A DNA stretch of 64,000 nucleotides from a virus, in IMG/VR virus record IMGVR_UViG_3300025874_000006, positions 1-64,000 of that record. One strand, written 5' to 3'. This document shows positions 1 to 46,738 of the stretch, piece after piece. How positions within the stretch are numbered: position 1 is the stretch's first letter; each line of letters opens with the position of its first letter. The position numbers were made by a program, and so were the translations under genes. The notes under the pieces are model-generated. The model was not told the DNA's origin. It saw only the letters and a program-made list of their open reading frames with translations, and did no database searches.

Positions 1-27
1 GAAGTTTTCTTTAACAAATGCAGTCAT
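1..27 (-). CDS. 5' end of a gene cut by the left edge
   Basis: An ATG at 27-25 opens a frame of nine codons (MTAFVKENF) that runs off the window. A GAGAGA purine run upstream can serve as ribosome binding site. A sigma70 promoter and a 26-bp dyad lie just upstream. Too little is visible to name the product. Confidence 0.6.
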
Positions 28-59
28 AATCTATCTCTCTATCAGTCAATTAGGTGTAC

Positions 60-88
60 ATTATCTCACACTTATTTCCAAAACGCAA
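60..88 (-). promoter_or_regulatory. sigma70-type promoter
   Basis: On the minus strand it reads TTGCGT, 17 bp, GATAAT. It points at the gene cut by the left edge. The 26-bp dyad begins exactly 9 bp upstream of the -35 box. Confidence 0.65.
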
Positions 89-97
89 GTAGTAAAC

Positions 98-123
98 GTG
101 ACCAATCAGCGATAGTTGGTCAC
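98..123. promoter_or_regulatory. 26-bp dyad operator-like element, copy 1
   Basis: An inverted repeat GTGACCAA, 10 bp, TTGGTCAC. It overlaps the stop codon of the membrane-protein gene ending at 120 and sits 9 bp upstream of the -35 box. The same 8-10-8 layout and 9-bp spacing recur at 17962, 35772 and 36149. No T-run follows it, so a terminator is less likely than a protein-binding site. Confidence 0.65.
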
Positions 124-545
124 GATGTTACTAGAGTGTCAACTAAATTCATTAGTACCGCAGTGCCTGATATAGAACTTCCTATCATAATTGCTTTGTC
201 ATTCCAACAGTGACCGACATATACCCATGCAGTAGCGGCTGACGCATAACATATCTGTCCGGTGATACCAAACCCTGCGCTCATAGCGAATACTCCAACC
301 ACACCAAGTACAGTCGCTCCCCACTTAACATAACTGTCAATCGTACCCGTAGGTGTTGCAGGCTTTAAGTCTTCGACTTCTAATTGTAGTTCTTCCATCT
401 CTTGCTTGAGACGTTTGCGTTCGACATTAAGTTCCATAGCAAGTCTCCCTGCCTTGGACATCGTACTTCCGGAAAACTCCGATTGAATTTCGGGACTAAG
501 TTGACCCTCGACTCTTGCAACTCGTTCGTCTTCGTTCATAGTCAT
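120..545 (-). CDS. small membrane protein with coiled-coil N-half
   Basis: A 141-aa protein of unknown function. The first 60 residues are charged and helical, with a K/E/L-rich coiled-coil stretch near 40-60. The C-half has about three hydrophobic segments. The stretch SYVKWGATV and the later W-x-DKAIMI resemble the protein at 41730-41987 (WYVKWAATV, WEDRALII), so the two look like paralogues. The start at 545 overlaps the upstream stop as ATGA. It is the last gene of a five-gene minus-strand run. Confidence 0.75.
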   Translation of the reverse strand: MTMNEDERVARVEGQLSPEIQSEFSGSTMSKAGRLAMELNVERKRLKQEMEELQLEVEDLKPATPTGTIDSYVKWGATVLGVVGVFAMSAGFGITGQICYASAATAWVYVGHCWNDKAIMIGSSISGTAVLMNLVDTLVTS

Positions 546-718
546 TGGTCATCCCGAGCAACACTTCCGCTCATATCAATAAAGATTTTGAGTGTTCGAT
601 TATCGTCTTGTAGACTGTACCGCACACTTTCATTTTCACGTAAGTAACGAACGTAGGTACGGCCTTCGCAGTCTATCACTTCAAATCTATTGATGTTATT
701 CATTTCAGTAGTCATCAT
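542..718 (-). CDS. hypothetical protein, 58 aa
   Basis: A small soluble protein not recognised from sequence. The ATG at 718 is chosen because it forms an ATGA overlap with the upstream stop and follows AAGGAGAT. An extended upstream reading would run into the neighbour. It sits within a tightly overlapping run of small genes typical of phage early regions. Confidence 0.7.
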   Translation of the reverse strand: MMTTEMNNINRFEVIDCEGRTYVRYLRENESVRYSLQDDNRTLKIFIDMSGSVARDDQ

Positions 719-1098
719 CTTAGTATCTCCTTCCAATCCTTACGAGTGGTTTCGTTATCAGGTTCCATTAGTTCGACTTTAACATCCCCTCCCGAAGCTT
801 CGGCAGCATCCTGTATTTGTTTCCATATACCGGCAGTATTCATTCTCAGACATTCCTGAGTCTTGTCGCATATGTATCGACTACCACTATGACCAATAAA
901 GATGAAAGAATCCATAGTCTCTTCAACGTCAACGATACCAGAGTTCATACGCCAACTATCACTACCCAGATATCCACCACTCCACCCCGCTAGGACTTTG
1001 TACAACACTTCTTCTGTTCGACCATACCCAGTATTACCACTTTTTTTAATGTCAGTAATTTTAAGAACGACCCAGTTGTCTGGCGTGTAGTCACTCAT
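715..1098 (-). CDS. hypothetical protein, 127 aa
   Basis: Not recognised. Soluble, mixed composition, with a W-rich N-half. The ATG at 1098 is preceded by GGAGAGAACA, a good ribosome binding site, and overlaps the end of the upstream gene by 8 bp. The longer in-frame start at 1128 lacks this support. Confidence 0.72.
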   Translation of the reverse strand: MSDYTPDNWVVLKITDIKKSGNTGYGRTEEVLYKVLAGWSGGYLGSDSWRMNSGIVDVEETMDSFIFIGHSGSRYICDKTQECLRMNTAGIWKQIQDAAEASGGDVKVELMEPDNETTRKDWKEILR

Positions 1099-1315
1099 TG
1101 TTCTCTCCGAACCCACTATCCCATTCACCGAATACTTCTGGTGATTGTTCTGCTGCCTGTTCCATATAGTACTCGCCTGGATAATGTCTAAGACATCGGT
1201 ATGCTTCTTTGCGTACAGCTGATGGTACTCTTGGAGTCTTCTTGGGGTCTAGTAGGTCTACTAGAAACTGACGTGTATTGTTCACCGCCCACCGGCGTTC
1301 GTTCGGCATTGTCAT
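1091..1315 (-). CDS. hypothetical protein, 74 aa
   Basis: A small basic N-half and acidic C-end. Phrases such as RKEAYRCLRHYPGEY recur in phage small proteins of unknown role. The start at 1315 overlaps the preceding stop as ATGA. Confidence 0.72.
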   Translation of the reverse strand: MTMPNERRWAVNNTRQFLVDLLDPKKTPRVPSAVRKEAYRCLRHYPGEYYMEQAAEQSPEVFGEWDSGFGENNE

Positions 1316-1608
1316 CTTCGCATACTCGCTAAATCTTTCATCTGTTGTACATCAATCACAGGGATTGCATTGGACTTGTGCATTGTACCGATACCCTTGA
1401 CTAGGGTGCCGGTGTAGTTTAACTTTTCCTTGATTTGGGTATTGAGAGTACCCGAATCGCAAGATTTGTAAACCGGAGTCTCCCTTCGATAGGGTTCACT
1501 CTGTACTTCCATAGGTTGGAATTTGGGTGCGGGTTTCTTCTTGGTAGACCAAGCGTTGTAACTCTTCTTGCGACCAGTGGTAGTGTGGCGCATGGAACCG
1601 TGCATCAT
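1312..1608 (-). CDS. hypothetical basic protein, 98 aa
   Basis: A lysine- and arginine-rich soluble protein with no recognised domain. It is first in the operon driven by the promoter at 1638-1667. Two adjacent ATG codons (1608 and 1605) are possible starts, with GAGG upstream. Confidence 0.7.
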   Translation of the reverse strand: MMHGSMRHTTTGRKKSYNAWSTKKKPAPKFQPMEVQSEPYRRETPVYKSCDSGTLNTQIKEKLNYTGTLVKGIGTMHKSNAIPVIDVQQMKDLASMRR

Positions 1609-1637
1609 AATAAAACCTCAATATACATTATGTGTAC

Positions 1638-1667
1638 ATTATACGACACATTCTAGGGTGTTGTCAA
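1638..1667 (-). promoter_or_regulatory. sigma70-type promoter
   Basis: Minus strand TTGACA, 18 bp, TATAAT, about 30 bp upstream of the gene starting at 1608. Likely drives the five overlapping genes down to 120. Confidence 0.7.
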
Positions 1668-1769
1668 GTGTACAATCTTCTTGCATTCGTTAAATCTTCG
1701 GATACTGGTGAGTACTCCGAACAGGTCATCGTCTGCCTTCTGGGAGAAACTCAACCAGATGATTAACAT
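1653..1769 (-). CDS. possible 38-aa peptide
   Basis: A short frame starting at ATG 1769 with a hydrophobic N-terminus (MLIIWLSFSQ) and ending at 1653. No convincing ribosome binding site was seen, and its 3' end runs through the -35 box of the next promoter. It fills most of the gap 1609-1789, which otherwise holds only that promoter. Low confidence. Confidence 0.25.
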   Translation of the reverse strand: MLIIWLSFSQKADDDLFGVLTSIRRFNECKKIVHLTTP

Positions 1770-21263: not shown

Positions 21264-23264
21264 CTATCCTTCACAAGCTCGACACTCATCTCCATCATTT
21301 CCAACAGCATTTAAACTGATATCTGTCTTCAACTGAATCATAAGGTCTTCATAACCACCAATATATCTACCTTCTATGTAAATCTGTGGAACTGTCTTAA
21401 CATCCTTTCGTCCAGTTACTTCTGCGGCAGTCTTCTTTATCACATCAAGGTCGATGTAATCAAAAACAACTCCCTGCAACTCTAACTCTTCGATTGCCTT
21501 GACACACCACGGGCAGTTAGATTTACCATAGATTATCGTCCGGTTGTCGTCTGCCAATGCAACTCGTTCGACTTTGTCGGATACCGTCTCCGCACGAGAA
21601 CTCGCCTCGGTACGCAAATAGTATAGACCTTTCAATCCGTTCTTCCACGCGCTGAAGTGCACCTTATTGACATATGCCTTAGGTGTGCCCGATGGGAAGA
21701 ATAGATTGACTGACTGACCTTGACAAATAAATGGTTGTCGTTCGGCCGCATGAGTCACCACCCAATTCTGGTCTAGTTCTTGCGCGGTCTTGTATATCGC
21801 CTTCTCCCCTTCGTTGAGGAAGGGTAGGTGTTGCACCGACCCCTTTTTGGTGATAATACTAGTCCACGTAGATTCGTTATCTTGACCCTTCTCTTTGAGG
21901 AGTTGGGTCAGATAAACGTTCTTCACTAGGAACGAACCAGCACGAGTTCTATGCGTATAAGCACATGCCTTCAGTGGTTCGATAGATGGTGATGTAGATA
22001 AAATGACTCCCGACGACGCGTTAGGTGCTATTGCTATTAAATGCGCATTACGCATTTCTGAACCTAAACCGTCTGAGTATTCACCTCGCTCTTTCGCAAG
22101 GAGCCGTGACTCTTCTACAGCTTGTCTATTGATGTTCTCAAAGACAACCTTATTTATCTCTCGGGCTTTATCAGATTCCCAAGCGACAGAGTGCTTTTGT
22201 AAGAGTGAATGGAATCCCATTGCACCCAAACCAATTGATCTTTCACGTTCCGCAGAGTATCTTGCTCTGGAGATGCTGTCCGGTGCGTTCTCAATAAAGT
22301 ACTCAAGAACGTTGTCCAACATGCGAATCAAGTCTCGCACAATGTTGGTATCCTTCCACTCATCGTAGTATTCTAGATTGAGTGAGGAGAGACAACATAC
22401 CGCAGTTCTATCTGGCCCTGTCGGTAAGTGAATTTCATTACATAAGTTTGACCCGTGAATCTTTAGTCCCTTATCCTTCAGAGGTTGGGGGAGCCCTCGA
22501 TTCGCGGCATCAATAAAGTTTAAGTACGGTTCACCCGTACGGAACCGAACCTCAAGGATTCGTTCCCATAACTTACGTGCATCTACAGAATCTTTAACTG
22601 CACCGTCCTTCGGGTCACGTAAGTCGAATTTTTTGTTGTTTATAACCGCAGTCATAAACTCATCGGATATATTTATAGCATTGTGAATGTTCAGAGCTTT
22701 CCGTTGAACATCACCTGTCGGTATACGGATATTTAGGAATTCTATAATGTCTGGATGGCTTATGTCTAGGTATGCTGCATATGACCCCTTACGCGTCTTA
22801 CCCTGACGATAAGCAATCATGTCGGCATCTACAGTGTGTAAGAACGGAATCGGGCCAGGCGCAATGTCAGAGACCGTACGAACGTCCGACCAATGGCCAC
22901 CTACACCACCACCCATAACGGACAACCATCGCAGTTCCGAAGAGTGCTCGATAAGTCCCTCTAGAGTATCTGGTACATAAGTAAGGAAACATGAAATGGG
23001 CAATCCCTTCCCCTTGCCTTCAGCTGAAGGTGCGTTTGACAGTACTGGTGATGCAAACATGAACCATTTCTTGGAAACATATTCGTACAGTCTTCGTGCT
23101 AGGACTTCATCCAGTTGTCCTTTGTACATCGACCATGCGGTTGATGCTCTTGCATATGCGTCTTGTGGCGAATCTTCACCTTCTACCATATAGAAGTCTT
23201 TTAACATACCTACTGCATAATCAGTAAGTAAGTCATCTCTATCATATTTCACTTCGACTGTCAT
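21264..23264 (-). CDS. nrdA: ribonucleotide reductase large subunit NrdA with internal glutaredoxin
   Basis: A 666-aa protein. The catalytic core shows LPISCFLTY, SNLCNEIHLPTG and AVCCLSSLNLE for the redox and radical cysteines, and GLKGLYYLRTEA for the Tyr pair. No N-terminal ATP-cone is evident. From about residue 575 a glutaredoxin domain follows: CPWC at 584-587, TVPQIYI and GGYED. The very end (ECRACEG, Cys661 and Cys664) looks like the normal NrdA redox tail, so the glutaredoxin sits between core and tail. It reduces ribonucleotides to deoxyribonucleotides. Confidence 0.93.
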   Translation of the reverse strand: MTVEVKYDRDDLLTDYAVGMLKDFYMVEGEDSPQDAYARASTAWSMYKGQLDEVLARRLYEYVSKKWFMFASPVLSNAPSAEGKGKGLPISCFLTYVPDTLEGLIEHSSELRWLSVMGGGVGGHWSDVRTVSDIAPGPIPFLHTVDADMIAYRQGKTRKGSYAAYLDISHPDIIEFLNIRIPTGDVQRKALNIHNAINISDEFMTAVINNKKFDLRDPKDGAVKDSVDARKLWERILEVRFRTGEPYLNFIDAANRGLPQPLKDKGLKIHGSNLCNEIHLPTGPDRTAVCCLSSLNLEYYDEWKDTNIVRDLIRMLDNVLEYFIENAPDSISRARYSAERERSIGLGAMGFHSLLQKHSVAWESDKAREINKVVFENINRQAVEESRLLAKERGEYSDGLGSEMRNAHLIAIAPNASSGVILSTSPSIEPLKACAYTHRTRAGSFLVKNVYLTQLLKEKGQDNESTWTSIITKKGSVQHLPFLNEGEKAIYKTAQELDQNWVVTHAAERQPFICQGQSVNLFFPSGTPKAYVNKVHFSAWKNGLKGLYYLRTEASSRAETVSDKVERVALADDNRTIIYGKSNCPWCVKAIEELELQGVVFDYIDLDVIKKTAAEVTGRKDVKTVPQIYIEGRYIGGYEDLMIQLKTDISLNAVGNDGDECRACEG

Positions 23265-24021: not shown

Positions 24022-24204
24022 TTAAAATTTATCTGGAAATATTCTTTTGAGTACTGCCGCAGCATCTTTGCGTTTCTTCTTGCGGTCATGTTTTTTACGT
24101 ACTATGACAGTCTGGTCTGGATTATCACCGGCACCAGCAACACCTTTGGTAGTATTGGCAATTTCTTCGTCAAACTGTTTCATGAATTCTTCGTATGTTT
24201 TCAT
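24022..24204 (-). CDS. small protein with capsid-targeting-like N-terminus, 60 aa
   Basis: Starts MKTYEEFMKQFDEE, very close to the T4 internal-protein start MKTYQEFIAEA. The rest is basic (KKHDRKKKRKDAAAVLKR), which would suit DNA contact in the head. The FDE could be a cleavage site for the gp21-type protease, although T4 prefers L/I at the first position. ATGA overlap with the gene upstream. Confidence 0.7.
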   Translation of the reverse strand: MKTYEEFMKQFDEEIANTTKGVAGAGDNPDQTVIVRKKHDRKKKRKDAAAVLKRIFPDKF

Positions 24205-26338: not shown

Positions 26339-27082
26339 TCATTTATTTTTTGGTGGAGTCTTATCACCGTTCTTTAGATTGTCAGCGCCACTTCGAGCAG
26401 GAGATTGTTTCATATCCTTACCGCCCGCTTTAAAAGTAACATCGTGACCTTCTTCTTCTTGGTCTTCGATCTTCTTATCAGACTTCTTGTGCATATCAAT
26501 GACTTTCTTATCGTGTTCAGAAGAATGGTCATCATACTTCTCACCATCTGCTGCGATTTTCTTAGGGTCATTTTTTGCTTCAACAATCTCAGTCCACATC
26601 TTTTCAAACGCAGAACGAGTGTCCACACTTTCAATCTTAGAGATCTCTGCTTTCTTATCAGCAGTCTTAGGATTCTTTTTGATATCAGAGTCACCATCAG
26701 CTTCTGGTTCTACTTCTGGTTCTTCTTCATCTTTTTTCTTAGGTGGGAAAGGTTTCTTCTTAGACTTCTCTTCGTCTTCGTCTTCGTCTTCTTCTTTCTC
26801 TTCCTTAACAGCAGGTTTCTTACCACCGTCAATAGCGTCATCAGTCGCCTTACGCTTCTTGTGAAGGTATTCATCCGAAGAATCTACGTCACCATCGTTG
26901 TCGATGTCCTTGTCCTTACGGTCTTTGAACTTCTTATCGTTCTCTGCATCGTTGACAGGGTCGAGTTTCTTCTCTTCAACTTCTTTTTTCTTCTTGTCAG
27001 TACCGCAAGATTCTGCGATTTGTTCCTGCTCGGAGACCTTCATCGACAAGTAAGCCTCCATGATTTTATTAATGTTTGACAT
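26339..27082 (-). CDS. acidic/lysine-rich protein with EF-hand-like loop
   Basis: A 247-aa, very low-complexity protein with alternating acidic and lysine blocks. DIDNDGDVDSSDEYLHKK (about residue 60) fits a calcium-binding EF-hand/dockerin-like loop. The start MSNINKIMEAYLSMKVSE may be a divergent capsid-targeting sequence. Composition is that of a disordered prohead core or scaffold-like protein; no homologue can be named. Confidence 0.68.
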   Translation of the reverse strand: MSNINKIMEAYLSMKVSEQEQIAESCGTDKKKKEVEEKKLDPVNDAENDKKFKDRKDKDIDNDGDVDSSDEYLHKKRKATDDAIDGGKKPAVKEEKEEDEDEDEEKSKKKPFPPKKKDEEEPEVEPEADGDSDIKKNPKTADKKAEISKIESVDTRSAFEKMWTEIVEAKNDPKKIAADGEKYDDHSSEHDKKVIDMHKKSDKKIEDQEEEGHDVTFKAGGKDMKQSPARSGADNLKNGDKTPPKNK

Positions 27083-27517: not shown

Positions 27518-27835
27518 TTACCATGCACGGCACGACCAATAACGCGCCTTCCACTTCGGGCCAGGGTCTGCACAATTGTGCCTCGCCCTGAAACTTTTTC
27601 TACGAGCAGGGTTGTCTTTCTTAATGGTCATATTCGGATCTCCGAATGAAACCTTGACGACATTACCTGACTCGTTCTTGGTATATACGTAGAACTTCTT
27701 AGAACCACCACGTACGGGTTTATTCAGAGTAACAGTATTACCCTGATATTCTGTTTCAGTTAGTTCGAGTTCTTCGTCAAGAGACGCACATGACTCGCAA
27801 CAACCTTCATCTATATACTTTTTAAATTTTTTCAT
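27518..27835 (-). CDS. capsid-targeted-type protein, 105 aa
   Basis: MKKFKKYIDEGCC opens the protein when started at 27835, where the ATG overlaps the upstream stop as ATGA. IDE followed by G fits the L/I-x-E cleavage rule of the T4 prohead protease. The remainder is basic and beta-rich with a Cys- and Arg-rich C-terminus (FRARHNCADPGP). Probably enters the head; function there unknown. Confidence 0.78.
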   Translation of the reverse strand: MKKFKKYIDEGCCESCASLDEELELTETEYQGNTVTLNKPVRGGSKKFYVYTKNESGNVVKVSFGDPNMTIKKDNPARRKSFRARHNCADPGPKWKARYWSCRAW

Positions 27836-28122
27836 CAGTGTTCCTTTATCCAACGTTCGACTTCTGCCTTAGCAGTAGCAACATTCCTATATCCAGTTAC
27901 GGGATATCTCGGAGTGTCTCCACTCTTATCGAAGACAGTGGGCAACACTTTCTGACTGCCATCTTTATTAAATTTCATAGAATCAGCACCAGATAAACGT
28001 ATTTCATACATACCATCAGAAGTAACGTGTTTGAACACTTTCTTTTTACCATCCCAACCGTCAGGAACTTTCTTCCATTTGATCTTGGTAGACTCTTCTA
28101 GATGTGTCTTAAAGGATTTCAT
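27835..28122 (-). CDS. capsid-targeted-type protein, 95 aa
   Basis: MKSFKTHLEES opens the protein, with LEE followed by S as a likely protease site. Then a basic beta-rich domain (YEIRLSGADSMKFNKDG). Not recognised beyond the leader. Directly coupled to the 105-aa gene. Confidence 0.76.
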   Translation of the reverse strand: MKSFKTHLEESTKIKWKKVPDGWDGKKKVFKHVTSDGMYEIRLSGADSMKFNKDGSQKVLPTVFDKSGDTPRYPVTGYRNVATAKAEVERWIKEH

Positions 28123-28135
28123 TTTTGTACTCAGT

Positions 28136-29206
28136 TCAGTAAGAATCTTTCTTTGCTCTCATGCGTTCTTGATGTTTTTCAATCGCTTTACGTCTAGCAA
28201 CTGCTTTCAAGTCTGTCTTGGCAGGCTGGGAAGCCATAGCGACTTTATCACGTCTGTGCTTAGGAGTAGTCTTAATTGCATGTGTAAGACGGCGATAATC
28301 ATCGTCCTTTGCTTCCGACAAGTCTGTAGATTCTTTTATATCGTCCATTAAAGCCTTTACGGTCTTCATGTCCAGACCCATCTTCTTAGCAATCCACTGT
28401 GCAGATTTACCTTGGTCAATATAGCCATGGAACTCTTTCATCCTACCTTCTTCAAGGTCTACAGACTCGTTACGCTTAGACTTCTGAAAAGCATTGTAAT
28501 CTTTACGTCTCTTAGCATCTGCTGCTTTCTCAGCAGGAGTCATCTGTGATACTGGTTTCTTACCTTCCTCAACAGACTCTTTCATCGAACCAAAGCCTGG
28601 GTCGAACCCAGTAATGTCACGAAGGTTGGCAGTTGCCGCAAGACGTAGGTAACGTAACTTAATACCCTTACTCTCGAACTCTGCATAATCGACTTCACCG
28701 TCACTTGACTTCTGTGACAGGTTATATAGAAGACCTTTCTTAACATCAATCTTAACTAAAGGAAAGATGTCACCTGCCATACTGTTGCGAGTAGCATAAC
28801 GGAATACTGTTTGACCAGTCTTAACCTTTGCTTCCTTGCCAACATATGACTTATCACCAGCATCAAGACCGAACAGTACGATACCGTCTACCCTACCGTG
28901 GCCACATACACCAATCACTTTGTAACCTTTCTTGGTTCCGTAAGCAACTACCTTTTCTTCACCCCAGTTACTAGGTGACTTATCTAAGAATTGTTGGTAT
29001 GCTTCGTCAAGTTCAACAGATTCTTTCATAAGATAAGCATCAACACCGCCAGTAGACTTTAGTTTCCATTTCTTAGCCGCTTTCTGTGCCGCATCATATG
29101 AAGTAGGTGCAGTAACTACTACCTTACCTTTCTTAGCATGAACTACAGTGTAGGTCAATTCCTTTGCTTCTACAAGACTTTCTCTTAACTCACTAAACTG
29201 TTTCAC
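28136..29206 (-). CDS. capsid-targeted multi-site protein, 356 aa
   Basis: Begins MKQFSELRESLVEAKE. LVE followed by A, LDE by A, LEE by G and LSE by A occur at roughly residues 13, 68, 258 and 300. Each of the last three is embedded in a similar ES-hydrophobic-x-L-x-E context, so the protein could be cut into several pieces like a polyprotein. The central part (YGTKKGYKVIGVCGHGRVDG) is a globular domain I cannot name. The C-terminus is a basic, helix-rich tail (RRKAIEKHQERMRAKK). Confidence 0.78.
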   Translation of the reverse strand: MKQFSELRESLVEAKELTYTVVHAKKGKVVVTAPTSYDAAQKAAKKWKLKSTGGVDAYLMKESVELDEAYQQFLDKSPSNWGEEKVVAYGTKKGYKVIGVCGHGRVDGIVLFGLDAGDKSYVGKEAKVKTGQTVFRYATRNSMAGDIFPLVKIDVKKGLLYNLSQKSSDGEVDYAEFESKGIKLRYLRLAATANLRDITGFDPGFGSMKESVEEGKKPVSQMTPAEKAADAKRRKDYNAFQKSKRNESVDLEEGRMKEFHGYIDQGKSAQWIAKKMGLDMKTVKALMDDIKESTDLSEAKDDDYRRLTHAIKTTPKHRRDKVAMASQPAKTDLKAVARRKAIEKHQERMRAKKDSY

Positions 29207-29208
29207 GT

Positions 29209-29391
29209 TTAACTTCCTCTTGATGCGCCACGAATCATTTTCGTTGCTGCTCGGTTTGTATTATTTATTTTTAAATTGGGGCCTTGCGTCCCCATTGTAC
29301 TAAATTGGTTGTTTTCAAAACTAGTAGACTGTAACTTTTCCTTCTTGGCTTGTGACATCTTTTTGTTACGTGGTTTCTTAGTCTTGCTCAT
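29209..29391 (-). CDS. small basic protein, 60 aa
   Basis: Lys/Arg/Asn/Ser-rich and probably disordered (MSKTKKPRNKKMSQAKKEK). Lacks the capsid-targeting start of its neighbours. May bind nucleic acid, but nothing specific is visible. Lies between two targeted genes. Confidence 0.6.
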   Translation of the reverse strand: MSKTKKPRNKKMSQAKKEKLQSTSFENNQFSTMGTQGPNLKINNTNRAATKMIRGASRGS

Positions 29392-29400
29392 AACTAATCC

Positions 29401-29673
29401 TTATGCTAAATCTTTGTCGTGGTTAAGACCACCCTTCTTCTTTTTAACTATGAAGGCGTTTACTCGTGCGTGGCCCCATTGTTGTGGTGTCGTGCCTGGA
29501 CGGTGACCCGTCTTCCATGCTGCGACTCCACGGTTATAAACCTTTTTTAGAGTCTCTGGAGATATACCTGACTTCTTTGCCTTAGAAGCGATACCGTCTG
29601 GGCCTTCTTCCAGATCTAATGTATCATACACTGAATAACGACCTTCGTCAAGGTATTTCTTAAAATTAATCAT
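29401..29673 (-). CDS. capsid-targeted DUF5824 protein, 90 aa
   Basis: MINFKKYLDEG at the start, with LDE-G and a second LEE-G about 13 residues later. The body (SPETLKKVYNRGVAAWKTG, RPGTTPQQWGHARVNAFI) matches the DUF5824 phage family. The ATG at 29673 overlaps the upstream stop as ATGA and follows AGGAGA. Function of DUF5824 unknown. Confidence 0.82.
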   Translation of the reverse strand: MINFKKYLDEGRYSVYDTLDLEEGPDGIASKAKKSGISPETLKKVYNRGVAAWKTGHRPGTTPQQWGHARVNAFIVKKKKGGLNHDKDLA

Positions 29674-31376
29674 GGTTTCCAATCTCCTAACATATCGTGA
29701 AGTACTTTATCGTCCATACCCGCATATGTCTTGGCGACCTTCTGTGCATAATACTGTGTACCATGACTCAGTTTACCTTGAGAGCCGTTGCTCTTACGGG
29801 TCAGAAGTTTCTTCAAGGTCATCAACGCATGTTGGTATTGTTTTTTGTTCAGGGTCTTAGACTTTATTTTATCCATGAACCCTTCATTAACACCTACGAT
29901 ATTCTCTTCTGCAACACAATCAGGAACTGTCTTATCACCTTTCTTTTTCATACCGACTTGCTTGTAACCGTCCCAACAATCTTCGTCATACATGTCTTTG
30001 AATGACTTGGTATACTTTGATGGTTTGGTCTTAGCGGCCGCATCGCCAGGTGCTGGTTTGTATGCAGAGGAATCGTCATCTGCTTTCTTACCATGCTTTT
30101 TGAAGTGTGCGTCACGTTTAGCTTTCGTGGACTTTGCAAGGCCTTTGTGATAACGAGCCGGTTGAGTACCTTCTCGGTCTTTTATATCGGGGTCTTGTCC
30201 TTCATACTGGATGACTGGACTAGTTGTCTTAAACCCTTTCTTACGCATTATAGTCTTGTTAACCATTTCGAACTCACCGTTCTTATAGTTTACAACGACA
30301 GGTAAATTTAGGTCTGACTGCATATCTTTCAATACCGCCTCAGCATCCCCATGCTGTTTTACACCTTTGCCCTTGTTCTTTGCAATCTTCTTGAACAACC
30401 GTTGAAGTTCCGTTACCTTAATAGCGGGTTTGTTACGGGTATCATTCATACGGTCTGCGAAGTGTCGCGTAAACTCGATGTCGATATTGAACTTCTTCAA
30501 TAGACGGTCACCGAACTTTTCTAAATCGTTAAGTTGCCCTTGGGTCACATCTTCGGAGATTAACTCCACAGATTCTAACCACTTGCGCATCTTCTTGCCT
30601 TCGTTAGTCTCAACGATGACATAGTTTGCACCTAGGATAGATATGGTAGCAATCTCATCACTTTCTTTGATTACTACCACATCCCCTACCTCGAACAATT
30701 CTCCTTGCACGAACTTCTCTCGTGCTTCGGATACTGTCTCAAGTTCTAGGTGATTACGGAATTCACTGGCTTCCTTTAGTCCCATACCCTTACGCACATC
30801 GTTAAACAACTTGCGTGTGTCTGGATTTGACATGGACTTAGGAACACCTTGCGAGAAAGAAACAAAATCATTATTCGTTGCGTTCTCTCTTTGTTTAGAA
30901 GCAGACATGCCTTCAACACCAGTAGCGTCTGGATCTCTCTTACCGGCAGATACCACCTTGATGTTCTTGAAGTTATAAAAACCATGTCTTGCTTTCTGTC
31001 CGTTGTACTTATTCAACAGGACATCAAATTCTGTAATTCTGTCGTCACCAACAACCATAGTTACTGACTTGTAACCTTGATCATATAGTGCGACCATGGC
31101 GTTGATAGCTGTTTTAACAGACTTATCCACCATGATATTCCGTGCATGTTTCGGAAACATTTTTCTTGTGTGTTTGATTTTATCAGAGTACGATAGCGGA
31201 TTCTTCTTTGCGTCTTGTGATTGTGACACAAATACTTTATAGTCCGTTTTACCGGACTTCTTCGCTAAAGTATCCATTACCTTGCCGTGACCAATCGTAG
31301 GAGGATTCATACGACCAAACGTGAAGTATACTTCGCGTTCTTCTTCGACAAGATATTGACTAAAATTCTTGATCAC
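29670..31376 (-). CDS. capsid-targeted nucleotidylyltransferase-like protein
   Basis: A 568-aa protein. MIKNFSQYLVEEE is the targeting start. GRMNPPTIGH at 21-30 is the HxGH-type nucleotide-binding motif (here TIGH), with SASKQREN as the later SxxxR motif, typical of cytidylyl- and NMN adenylyl-transferases. A second domain (about residues 285-385) contains FTRHFADRMNDTRN and a final TIMRKKGFKTTSP strand, a layout similar to BECR-type RNase folds; this is tentative. Further L/I-x-E sites lie between domains. If packaged, it would enter the host with the DNA. Confidence 0.82.
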   Translation of the reverse strand: MIKNFSQYLVEEEREVYFTFGRMNPPTIGHGKVMDTLAKKSGKTDYKVFVSQSQDAKKNPLSYSDKIKHTRKMFPKHARNIMVDKSVKTAINAMVALYDQGYKSVTMVVGDDRITEFDVLLNKYNGQKARHGFYNFKNIKVVSAGKRDPDATGVEGMSASKQRENATNNDFVSFSQGVPKSMSNPDTRKLFNDVRKGMGLKEASEFRNHLELETVSEAREKFVQGELFEVGDVVVIKESDEIATISILGANYVIVETNEGKKMRKWLESVELISEDVTQGQLNDLEKFGDRLLKKFNIDIEFTRHFADRMNDTRNKPAIKVTELQRLFKKIAKNKGKGVKQHGDAEAVLKDMQSDLNLPVVVNYKNGEFEMVNKTIMRKKGFKTTSPVIQYEGQDPDIKDREGTQPARYHKGLAKSTKAKRDAHFKKHGKKADDDSSAYKPAPGDAAAKTKPSKYTKSFKDMYDEDCWDGYKQVGMKKKGDKTVPDCVAEENIVGVNEGFMDKIKSKTLNKKQYQHALMTLKKLLTRKSNGSQGKLSHGTQYYAQKVAKTYAGMDDKVLHDMLGDWKP

Positions 31377-31741
31377 TTGTTATCGCCTTTAGACCTGTTT
31401 CTTTTGCGTTCGATTTCTTGCTTACGAACAACCTTTACAAGTTTCTTAGCTTGGCGATCTATACGTGCTTGTACCGCAGGTTTTTCGAGTCTCTTCTCTA
31501 TACCCTTCTTACGAGCAACAGACATCTCACCTTTATCCTGACCCTTAGTGATCTTAGAGACCATAGCCTTACGCGCCTGTCGGCGAGCACGCTTCTTTAG
31601 GGTGTCCATAGAGGCGAACTTTCTCTCGGCACGCTTACGTGCCATTGCGATACGAGCTTTATTCTTTTTCATTCGCATCGCCATTTTGCGGCGTTGCTGC
31701 ATATCTAAAACTTCAGATATGAGATCTTTAAATGACAACAT
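31373..31741 (-). CDS. capsid-targeted highly basic protein, 122 aa
   Basis: MLSFKDLISEV starts the protein (ISE-V site). The rest is one long Arg/Lys/Ala/Met helix (e.g. RMKKNKARIAMARKRAERK), strongly positively charged. This fits an internal head protein bound to packaged DNA, like T4 IP proteins in role though not in sequence. ATGA overlap with the nucleotidylyltransferase-like gene. Confidence 0.78.
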   Translation of the reverse strand: MLSFKDLISEVLDMQQRRKMAMRMKKNKARIAMARKRAERKFASMDTLKKRARRQARKAMVSKITKGQDKGEMSVARKKGIEKRLEKPAVQARIDRQAKKLVKVVRKQEIERKRNRSKGDNK

Positions 31742-31774
31742 GTCATATAATCCTTCTGTTGGTTTATCCCATTA

Positions 31775-32995
31775 TTATCTTCGGGCTGAGTCCCAGCCCT
31801 TTAATATATTAGATGAAAAGTTGTTGTATGAAAATTCCATACGGTCAACCAGTTTCACCGCATCACCACCAAGTGTGTCAATTGCTACATAACCTTCTTC
31901 ACCAGTCACTTTGTAACCATCAGAAGTTTTCACGAAAGTATCAATCGATTTAAGTTTGTCTAAACTATTTATAAGTTTTAATTTGACTAAAACTATTAAT
32001 TTTTGCAATTCGAACATTTTAACTAAGTTTGCACGATTTGAAGCAGAAAAGAACTCCATTTCGTCCGCATACTTCTGTCTCCACGTCTCTTTACCACGTT
32101 CAGACTTCTTACTGTCAATCTCTTTTTTGTAGTAAGCTTGTCTATTACTTATCAATCCGTTAACATGCTTTTTTGAGTCGGGCAGTAATGCACCGGCACG
32201 AACGAAAGAGTTGTTGTATGTCTCAATCGACTGTGCGAGTTTAGGATTATTCTCTAATGCACGTAGAGTTGTTGCAGAGGTTTGTTTGAATAACTTACCA
32301 ATTTGAGTGAGAGTCTTATTAATGTCTTTGGTTTCTTTCTCTGACATGGTGGCTTTGGTCACATCTTTCAACATTGCGTCCTGAGACCATACGTTCCTAG
32401 ATTTTTTTAATTTAGAAACGTCCACTCCATAAGAGGCCTTCATCGATTCAAAGTCGCTCCCAGTATAGGTAGTGTGCCATACTATACCAATCTTTGCATC
32501 ACGAACTTCTTTCCCTTGGTCATACGGTACTGCATATGCAATAGTGTTCGGGTGGAACACACTATACTTTTGTCCATCGATAGTCTTAGTAGACACATCA
32601 CCTTTACCGAACAGGAAGTCTCCCTGAATAACACCCTTGATTCCCAACTCAGGAAGATACCGCAGAGCGTCCTTCAACTTAGCGTTCAGGTCTCCCGAAG
32701 TATCATCATCGATGTCGGCATCTGTCTTGTAGACCTTTGGGTTCTTATTGAAGATACCTTTCTTAGCAACAAAGAACTTACCGTCACTTGGATCAGTACC
32801 GCAGAAGACAGCAGGAGCGCCATCCCACTTTACGGACACACTCCCTTTAGAAGTACCAGCCAACATATCTCGCAGACCCCGAAGAGCAAAGATTGCCTCA
32901 CGGGTTCCTTGGACACCACCATAAAGGACTTTGTCCTCAATGTGAGTCATGTGAGTATTTTTACTCTCCGTTATGAAGTCTGCGAAGTTTTCCAT
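31775..32995 (-). CDS. capsid-targeted ligase-like KxDG protein
   Basis: A 406-aa protein. MENFADFITES is the targeting start. VSVKWDGAPAVF carries KxDG at 56-59, the nucleotidyl-lysine motif of DNA/RNA ligases and capping enzymes. GVIQGDFLF (about 121-129) fits motif III with Asp for Glu, and KIGIVWHTTY (168-177) fits motif IIIa. A motif V lysine pair could not be placed with certainty. The C-half is helical. A covalent nucleotidyltransferase acting on RNA or DNA is the best guess. Confidence 0.75.
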   Translation of the reverse strand: MENFADFITESKNTHMTHIEDKVLYGGVQGTREAIFALRGLRDMLAGTSKGSVSVKWDGAPAVFCGTDPSDGKFFVAKKGIFNKNPKVYKTDADIDDDTSGDLNAKLKDALRYLPELGIKGVIQGDFLFGKGDVSTKTIDGQKYSVFHPNTIAYAVPYDQGKEVRDAKIGIVWHTTYTGSDFESMKASYGVDVSKLKKSRNVWSQDAMLKDVTKATMSEKETKDINKTLTQIGKLFKQTSATTLRALENNPKLAQSIETYNNSFVRAGALLPDSKKHVNGLISNRQAYYKKEIDSKKSERGKETWRQKYADEMEFFSASNRANLVKMFELQKLIVLVKLKLINSLDKLKSIDTFVKTSDGYKVTGEEGYVAIDTLGGDAVKLVDRMEFSYNNFSSNILKGWDSARR

Positions 32996-46048: not shown

Positions 46049-46738
46049 TCATTTCTTTTTCTTTTCTCCGGCAATCCACTTCTTCGCTTTAGCATTTTCT
46101 ACTGGAGCTTGAGTGAACTTAGTAGCATCACGGTATGCGCGGACTGTCTCTTTCTGGTAGTCCTTACCTTCAGAGTTATCCACAACTAGAAAGTTCTTCT
46201 TACCGAACATCTGTTGGAACTTACCAATATTTTTTTGTACCGCTTTCCAGTACTCAGTAACACCTTTGGCACCTAGTGTACGTGCGCGTTGTGCATCACG
46301 AGAGATTGCAGTATCAAGGTCAGTATTCACGAAAATCATTGCGACATCGTAACCTAGTTTCTTGAGTTCTTTTGCTTGGTCTGCAATCTTACTTGGGTCT
46401 TTACCAGTACCATCGATGACAAGACCTAGACGACCTCTGATGTACATCGATTGTTTGATGTCAGTAAGGCTCTTTGCTTTACCGCGAAGTTCTTGACCCT
46501 TTACGGAGAAGATGTTATCTGGATTCATTTCCATAGATGCTTTCTTCATGGCGTTCTCAAACGCATCATCAGAGTTAACAACTTTATAACCCATAGAAGT
46601 CAGACCTGTCTTACCGACAATGAATGACTTACCAGAGCCTGGGCCGCCAGCGAGAAAGATTGCCTTGAAGATTGCTGGGTCGTTGACACCTTCGTTTAAG
46701 AAGGACTTAAATGATTTTACCACGGTTGTGCTCGCCAT
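46049..46738 (-). CDS. capsid-targeted zeta-toxin-like P-loop kinase
   Basis: A 229-aa protein. VVKSFKSFLNEGVND is the same type of targeting start as at 27.5-33 kb (LNE-G site). IFLAGGPGSGKSFI is a Walker A at 31-38, LVIDGTGKDPSK a Walker B/acceptor region, and SRDAQRARTLGAKGV an Arg-rich lid. Zeta-type and polynucleotide-kinase-like enzymes share this fold. Substrate unknown. Start at 46738 (ATG) or a GTG five codons later. Confidence 0.76.
   Translation of the reverse strand: MASTTVVKSFKSFLNEGVNDPAIFKAIFLAGGPGSGKSFIVGKTGLTSMGYKVVNSDDAFENAMKKASMEMNPDNIFSVKGQELRGKAKSLTDIKQSMYIRGRLGLVIDGTGKDPSKIADQAKELKKLGYDVAMIFVNTDLDTAISRDAQRARTLGAKGVTEYWKAVQKNIGKFQQMFGKKNFLVVDNSEGKDYQKETVRAYRDATKFTQAPVENAKAKKWIAGEKKKK

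Follow-up and report, generated by a model that had tools for sequence, protein, structure and literature searches.

The window analysed here, a 64,000-nucleotide stretch (positions 1 to 64,000) of the virus record IMGVR_UViG_3300025874_000006, belongs to a virus contig of 151,103 bases and carries a cluster of minus-strand genes (27518–32995) whose products begin with a similar peptide of about ten residues, considered here as a candidate capsid-targeting propeptide of the kind known from T4 and referred to as the leader or label. The closest named records belong to the Kyanoviridae (Phage C48C1, Methylophilales phage Melnitz, Pelagibacter phage HTVC008M and cyanophages). Stretches adjoining the window encode a gp21 protease and, as assigned by position and by eye, homologues of T4 gp17, gp18, gp19, gp20, gp22 and gp23. 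A sequence-only reading of this DNA had named nine starts as sharing the leader; all nine are real open reading frame (ORF) starts at the places it gave, and the shared pattern is strict at seven of them (M-x2/3-F-x2-[YFHL]-[IL]-x-E; 27518, 27835, 29401, 29670, 31373, 31775 and 46049) and looser at 28136 and 24022. In the sequences below, a slash marks the predicted cut after E of [LI]xE.

27518..27835, minus strand: labelled gene 1, MKKFKKYIDE/GCC..., then SLDE and ELELTE/TEYQG; leader (codons 1–10) at 27806..27835, minus strand, F4 Y7 I8 E10
27835..28122, minus strand: labelled gene 2, MKSFKTHLEE/STK..., body of no assigned kind; leader at 28093..28122, minus strand, F4 H7 L8 E10
28136..29206, minus strand: loosely labelled gene, MKQFSELRESLVE/A, body of 342 amino acids (aa) with a weak LPD5-like match
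29401..29673, minus strand: labelled gene, MINFKKYLDE/G..., second site LDLEE/G just ahead of a DUF5824 domain; leader at 29644..29673, minus strand, F4 Y7 L8 E10
29670..31376, minus strand: labelled gene with GTG start, MIKNFSQYLVE/E, NMNAT/cytidylyltransferase domain and further modules; leader at 31344..31376, minus strand, shifted by one, F5 Y8 L9 E11
31373..31741, minus strand: labelled gene, MLSFKDLISE/VLDMQQRR..., very basic body; leader at 31712..31741, minus strand, F4 L7 I8 E10
31775..32995, minus strand: labelled gene, MENFADFITE/SKN..., DUF6267; leader at 32966..32995, minus strand, F4 F7 I8 E10, modelled as disordered (predicted local distance difference test score, pLDDT, <50 for residues 1–15)
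46049..46723, minus strand: labelled gene outside the cluster, MVKSFKSFLNE/G, P-loop kinase (zeta toxin / AAA_33 / polynucleotide-kinase-like); leader at 46691..46723, minus strand, shifted by one, GTG start at 46723, F5 F8 L9 E11
24022..24204, minus strand: tentative labelled gene, MKTYEEF (Y4 and F7, as in T4 IPII/III), FDE and not [LI]xE

Leader register and conservation

Five leaders (27518, 27835, 29401, 31373 and 31775) carry F4, [YHLF]7, [IL]8 and E10 in exact register, against 0.034 expected among 185 genes; with a shift of +1 allowed, 29670 and 46049, which have the same residues and one extra, bring the number to seven against 0.07 expected (both expectations computed with the residue frequencies of this genome's own N-termini). 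A looser pattern, M-x(0-4)-[FY]-x2-[FYLHIMV]-[LIVM]-x-E, searched at every start codon of the contig (n = 4,914), gave 15 matches, which include the cluster starts 27518, 27835, 29401, 29670, 31373 (twice) and 31775 as well as 46049; the remaining seven lie at places not called as gene starts. Inside called proteins, 42,530 internal positions yield 25 occurrences of the loose motif, a rate that predicts 0.6 in the N-terminal slots. The shared leader is not due to chance. At 28136 (start MKQFSELRESLVEA) and 24022 (start MKTYEEFMKQFDEE) aromatic or hydrophobic residues are kept at positions 4 and 7, with the cut site displaced (LVE) in the former and lacking L/I (FDE) in the latter. The tail-region start at 103882 (MINNKSFNRVLAES) was discarded, its match being probably due to chance.

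Genetic analysis of the T4 IPIII leader (MKTYQEFIAEA) has assigned capsid targeting mainly to residues 4 and 7 and processing to residues 8 and 10 (PMC9026906). Agreement of five leaders, and of two more with one extra residue, with these independently determined positions is the strongest internal argument. The sequence-only reading had ascribed MKTYQEFIAEA to the T4 internal proteins as a group, which is correct for IPII and IPIII but not for IPI, which begins MKTFKEFTSTTT. Among relatives of the DUF6267 protein (56 distinct leaders), F, [FY], [IL] and E are conserved (entropies 0.77, 1.68, 0.92 and 0.39 bits), the four other positions before the conserved ones vary (2.6–3.1 bits), and the residue between [IL] and E is mostly T. 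In some relatives of 27518, F4 and [YH]7 are retained but the cut site lies elsewhere, a pattern that two separable functions, docking and cutting, would produce.

Head protease and virion proteomes of relatives

The gp21-type protease on which the sequence-only reading had made its proposal depend is encoded in this genome, at 76820–77479 (Peptidase_S77 match G000:76982–77431, E 1e-40). Its H, S and D align with T4 H85, S140 and D168, the catalytic triad of gp21, and all three are conserved. The phage gp23 keeps the T4 maturation site (GFLTE/TPTN vs SFLTE/AEIG in T4), and its gp22 contains 16 [LI]xE against 7.7 expected. From the triad, the kept gp23 site and the [LI]xE-rich gp22, the L/I-x-E cut motif is probably in use in the window phage. 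In the leader cluster [LI]xE reaches a gp22-like density (24 seen vs 11.3 expected); in the bodies alone the excess is weak (15 vs 9.6). That of [LI]xE[AGS] is stronger (7 vs 2.1) and mainly owing to 28136, with four further such sites in its 342-aa body against 0.5 expected.

Published virion proteomes of S-CREM2 (PMC10665884, Table 3) and S-SZBM1 (PMC9146016), consulted after the label had been defined, served as a held-out test. The S-CREM2 proteins were scored with a position matrix built from the leaders of the window, C48C1, Melnitz and syn9. The four best scores all belong to non-structural proteins detected by mass spectrometry (MS), namely a cytidylyltransferase (MKNFSSFLTE/A), an APH-like kinase (MKRFDAFLTE/E), an S-adenosylmethionine (SAM) lyase (MKDFDSFLEE/F) and ORF136 (MQTFSMFFSE/D); no score among the 167 undetected proteins is that high. 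Weaker forms of the label occur on two further detected proteins, the Cas9-like nuclease (LRFASFMAE/A) and ORF13 (MKDLHSFLTE/Q). In the virion Cas9-like nuclease (ORF12; L011:7704–10313) the label stands at residue 17 and not at the start, so that the start codon may be misplaced or the propeptide longer. Over all ranks, the matrix separates the MS-detected non-structural proteins of S-CREM2 from the undetected ones only modestly (area under the curve 0.61, p 0.03), because many detected proteins are unlabelled tail or head structure, and only the top scores are informative. S-SZBM1 has three labelled genes, of which the cytidylyltransferase (leader MRFRQFIIE/A) was detected and is the only enzyme reported from that virion. 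For both phages combined, 5/7 labelled proteins were detected vs 77/430 unlabelled ones (Fisher p 0.003). DUF6267, labelled in the window phage, is both unlabelled and undetected in S-CREM2 and S-SZBM1. The cytidylyltransferase has also been reported in virions of S-SM1 and S-SCSM1 (PMC3037559, PMC9602691); the authors of the S-CREM2 and S-SCSM1 papers were unable to rule out contamination (PMC10665884, PMC9602691).

Candidate cargo, modules and portability

A degenerate DNA pattern for MKxFKx[FY][IL]xE[AG], scanned over viral contigs, matched at least 120 viral stretches, while a control pattern of the same codons in one scrambled order yielded three matches across the entire collection, a pair of which have the same sequence. 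ORFs of at least 50 aa are opened by 119 of the 125 listed matches, and among these listed matches the bodies form 50 families unrelated at E 1e-4, including DUF6267, adenylate kinase, SAM lyase, glucosaminidase, lytic transglycosylase, RNA ligase, cytidylyltransferase and zeta-like kinase. A matrix scan of the surroundings of 80 DUF6267 loci (970 kb) gave 285 labelled ORFs on the coding strand vs 3 on the other. The view of the sequence-only reading that the label sits on otherwise unrelated proteins, enzymes included, is borne out by dozens of unrelated bodies. A matrix trained solely on F-type leaders misses the Y-type IPII and IPIII of T4, both of which match the regular expression. In labelled ORFs from L076:4378, L093:4495 and L082:7926 onwards the bodies resemble PD-(D/E)XK nucleases by eye, which would be a further possible injected activity.

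Judged from sequence, 29670 is a cytidylyltransferase/NMNAT-like enzyme, homologous to the virion cytidylyltransferase of cyanophages, and 46049 is a P-loop kinase of the zeta/polynucleotide kinase (PNK) kind. In DUF6267 (31775 and relatives), K56-x-D58-G59, E367-G368 and K381-x-V383-D-R are invariant; K-x-D-G, E-G and K-x-V-D-R form a signature used by covalent nucleotidyltransferases (ligases). A fold search with the DUF6267 model (pLDDT 87) placed ligases among the best matches, none at E ≤ 0.001 (top DNA ligase 6wbo, E 0.16), and a sequence search of solved structures returned nothing credible. DUF6267 is thus possibly an ATP-dependent ligase, a lead given by weak fold matches and the invariant KxDG. 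A packaged kit for nicotinamide adenine dinucleotide (NAD) and RNA repair is likewise a lead, not a result.

In several of these proteins, [LI]xE sites recur at module boundaries. Melnitz has one 650-aa protein that unites the domains split in the window as 29670, 29401 and 27518, and HTVC008M unites two of them. The following counts are descriptive only: [LI]xE lies no more than 8 residues upstream of DUF5824 in 42/49 loci, fused forms included (LDE in Melnitz, IDE in HTVC008M), directly ahead of the [ST]EYQG-like start of the 27518 domain in 36/59, and ahead of the 29670 module at residues ~280–392 in about 22/35 (hand count). The boundary of the 27518 domain (PHROG 7595), a small conserved domain that starts directly after the last site of that protein, is identical whether it abuts the leader (MKSFKQYIEE/SEYQG) or follows a linker (ELELTE/AEYQG), and the 29670 module occurs both as a stand-alone protein (MKTFNALSE/EVTQK) and internally (VELISE/DVTQG; ISE/DVTQG in 29670 itself). 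Three domains with [LI]xE upstream, both behind a leader and inside longer proteins, suggest polyproteins that may be cleavable. In structure models, leaders are disordered and bodies ordered; five rows from annotated records were left out of an alignment used for such modelling. In 27518, residues 1–23 are disordered and order begins at the last cut site (ordered from 27), with lower confidence there owing to a thin N-terminal alignment. A fold search with the 27518 domain gave no match.

One neighbouring gene may encode a further gp21 substrate:

26339..27082, minus strand: tentative gp21 substrate, MSNINKIME/AYL, acidic, IVE/A near residue 170, without an aromatic residue at 4

The 26339 protein has an EF-hand/dockerin-like loop (DIDNDGDVDSSD), and this same loop is also present beside labelled genes in HTVC008M (L009:13331–13897) and syn9 (L010:8911–10500). 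Elsewhere in the window, 21264–23264 encodes the large subunit of ribonucleotide reductase, whose polypeptide appears to include a glutaredoxin-like stretch (YGKSNCPWC) at its C-terminal end. The contig ends (1–1693, also window 1–1693, and about 149450–151103) form a diverged duplicate block, 81–96% identical in pieces, that holds the same small genes at both ends; an exact terminal repeat was not found.

Interpretation and comparison with known systems

We propose, with a probability of about 0.87, that this Kyanoviridae-like phage uses the leader as a portable T4-type capsid-targeting propeptide, serving targeting, gp21 cleavage and injection with the DNA. During head assembly, F4 and [YFHL]7 would dock the labelled protein into the prohead core; the gp21-type protease would then cut after E of [LI]-x-E, freeing the mature protein inside the head, and this protein would pass into the host together with the DNA. 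The label is portable, borne by enzymes and uncharacterised proteins that otherwise share nothing, and extra [LI]-x-E sites ahead of folded modules (29670, 27518, 29401) would allow several modules to be delivered as one precursor. Packaging in the window phage appears well supported by analogy with relatives; docking, cleavage after E and injection we infer. The gp21 protease with its triad, enrichment of labelled proteins in the virion proteomes of relatives and the unrelated labelled bodies all favour the address label for head packaging that the sequence-only reading had seen in the leader. A broader proposal, which we favour by a small degree only, is that marine T4-type phages practise modular delivery, with a cleavable 10-residue label and internal [LI]xE linkers, and that the head protease cuts the polyproteins in the capsid. 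If so, a kit of NMNAT-like transferase, ligase-like DUF6267, P-loop kinase, SAM lyase, nucleases and wall hydrolases would enter the cell with the DNA, and the label would allow the injected effectors of marine myoviruses to be indexed from sequence.

Several observations weigh against these proposals. The virion data come from relatives; two small labelled S-SZBM1 proteins (191 and 192) were undetected, and some MS-detected non-structural S-CREM2 proteins have no clear label. A match to the S77 protease is present in 9/14 labelled contigs over 50 kb (in the available part), a tenth ending inside gp23, and absent in 5/14, although these contigs may be fragments. Not every junction is canonical: when fused into longer proteins, the 31373 domain is preceded by TDEA or PDEA and not [LI]xE, and in some loci the module mod277 follows MYEE or VSEE. 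Because the sequences counted are homologous and hence not independent of one another, the junction counts overstate significance.

Translation initiation or recent gene duplication might instead have produced the similar starts, which would then serve no purpose at the protein level, and the genes are indeed adjacent, on one strand and in some cases overlapping by a few bases. However, the codons differ between the leaders, so that recent copying of a single sequence does not account for them and their likeness is kept at the residue level; the bodies are unrelated, DUF6267 relatives conserve F, [FY], [IL] and E while most intervening positions vary, and the label recurs in unrelated contigs, leaving this explanation scarcely credible. 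Core or scaffold components of the prohead, which dock there, are proteolysed, mostly leave the head and do nothing after injection, would also carry such leaders. T4 gp67 and gp68 are components of this kind, the leaders are similar to propeptides that bind the core, several cut sites lie within 28136 and 26339, and the site density of the cluster is gp22-like. The bodies, on the other hand, are folded enzymes (nucleotidyltransferase, kinase, and DUF6267 without an internal site excess), and labelled enzymes persist in the mature virions of relatives, making a purely scaffolding role very unlikely. We regard as very unlikely that the label targets but stays uncleaved, with E as part of a docking helix, or that another protease cuts it: cleavage data for Kyanoviridae leaders were not found and 24022 has Y4 and F7 without [LI]xE, but an S77 protease with its triad and a conserved gp23 site are present in the same genome, and [LI]xE stands directly ahead of the mature domain even behind a linker or when the domain is internal. 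A cleavable capsid-targeting propeptide remains the preferred explanation.

Because sequence gives no sign of injection, only a minority of the phage proteins active during the first minute of infection are known. A label predictive of head cargo would allow many proteins of marine T4-like phages now annotated as 'hypothetical' to be listed as candidates for injected effectors, with roles in anti-restriction, NAD, RNA repair or wall entry, and would settle a doubt left by cyanophage proteomics, namely whether virion enzymes are cargo or contaminants.

The closest known system is the capsid-targeting sequence of T4 IPI–IPIII, which has the same length, the same four functional positions and the same L/I-x-E site (PMC9026906), is matched by a homologous protease with identical catalytic residues, and is likewise attached to unrelated bodies; T4 experiments have demonstrated ejection into the host and a leader sufficient to package a foreign protein (PMC9026906, PMC9391042). 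The window phage differs in being Kyanoviridae-like and not a member of the Straboviridae, in having mostly F and not Y at position 4, in carrying seven strict labels in one genome on bodies that are recognisable enzymes, and in having second and third sites at module boundaries. In T4 itself (NC_000866; L097:8967–9131, L096:4211–4441), gp61.1 (MKTFKEFIKED) and a short ORF at the uvsW 3′ end (MLLEFKQFLYEA) begin with leaders resembling those of the internal proteins and might be head cargo so far overlooked.

Virion-associated enzymes of cyanophages (cytidylyltransferase/NMNAT, APH kinase, SAM hydrolase and Cas9-like nuclease; PMC10665884, PMC9602691, PMC9146016, PMC3037559) include the homologue of 29670, and those of S-CREM2 start with the same label, although a targeting signal is not named in the available portions of the S-CREM2 and S-SCSM1 papers. 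Polyvalent effector proteins, found in phages and conjugative elements (PMC5512222), likewise combine several effector-like modules per polypeptide, thought to be injected and freed by proteolysis, and 29670 has a CTP_transf_like domain plus further modules in one polypeptide, fused or split differently in Melnitz and HTVC008M. Those proteins, however, have their own peptidase domain, whereas here the cutting would be left to the head protease, acting in trans, and a short peptide at the N-terminus forms the label; no embedded metallopeptidase or other peptidase domain was matched in any of ten proteins, which are thus not polyvalent proteins in the strict sense. In P1, an N-terminal peptide of DarB also directs cargo into the head (PMC9024508) but differs in sequence and length (30 residues), and in phiKZ and SPN3US the head protease removes propeptides, as proposed here, at a different motif, S/A-x-E (PMC9026906). 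In the open-access literature, no paper with the phrase 'capsid targeting sequence' was on cyanophages by title, and no paper combining 'capsid targeting' with cyanophage terms was among the matches listed, subscription papers lying outside this coverage. The principle is known from T4; its reach, the enzyme cargo and the modular use appear to be new.

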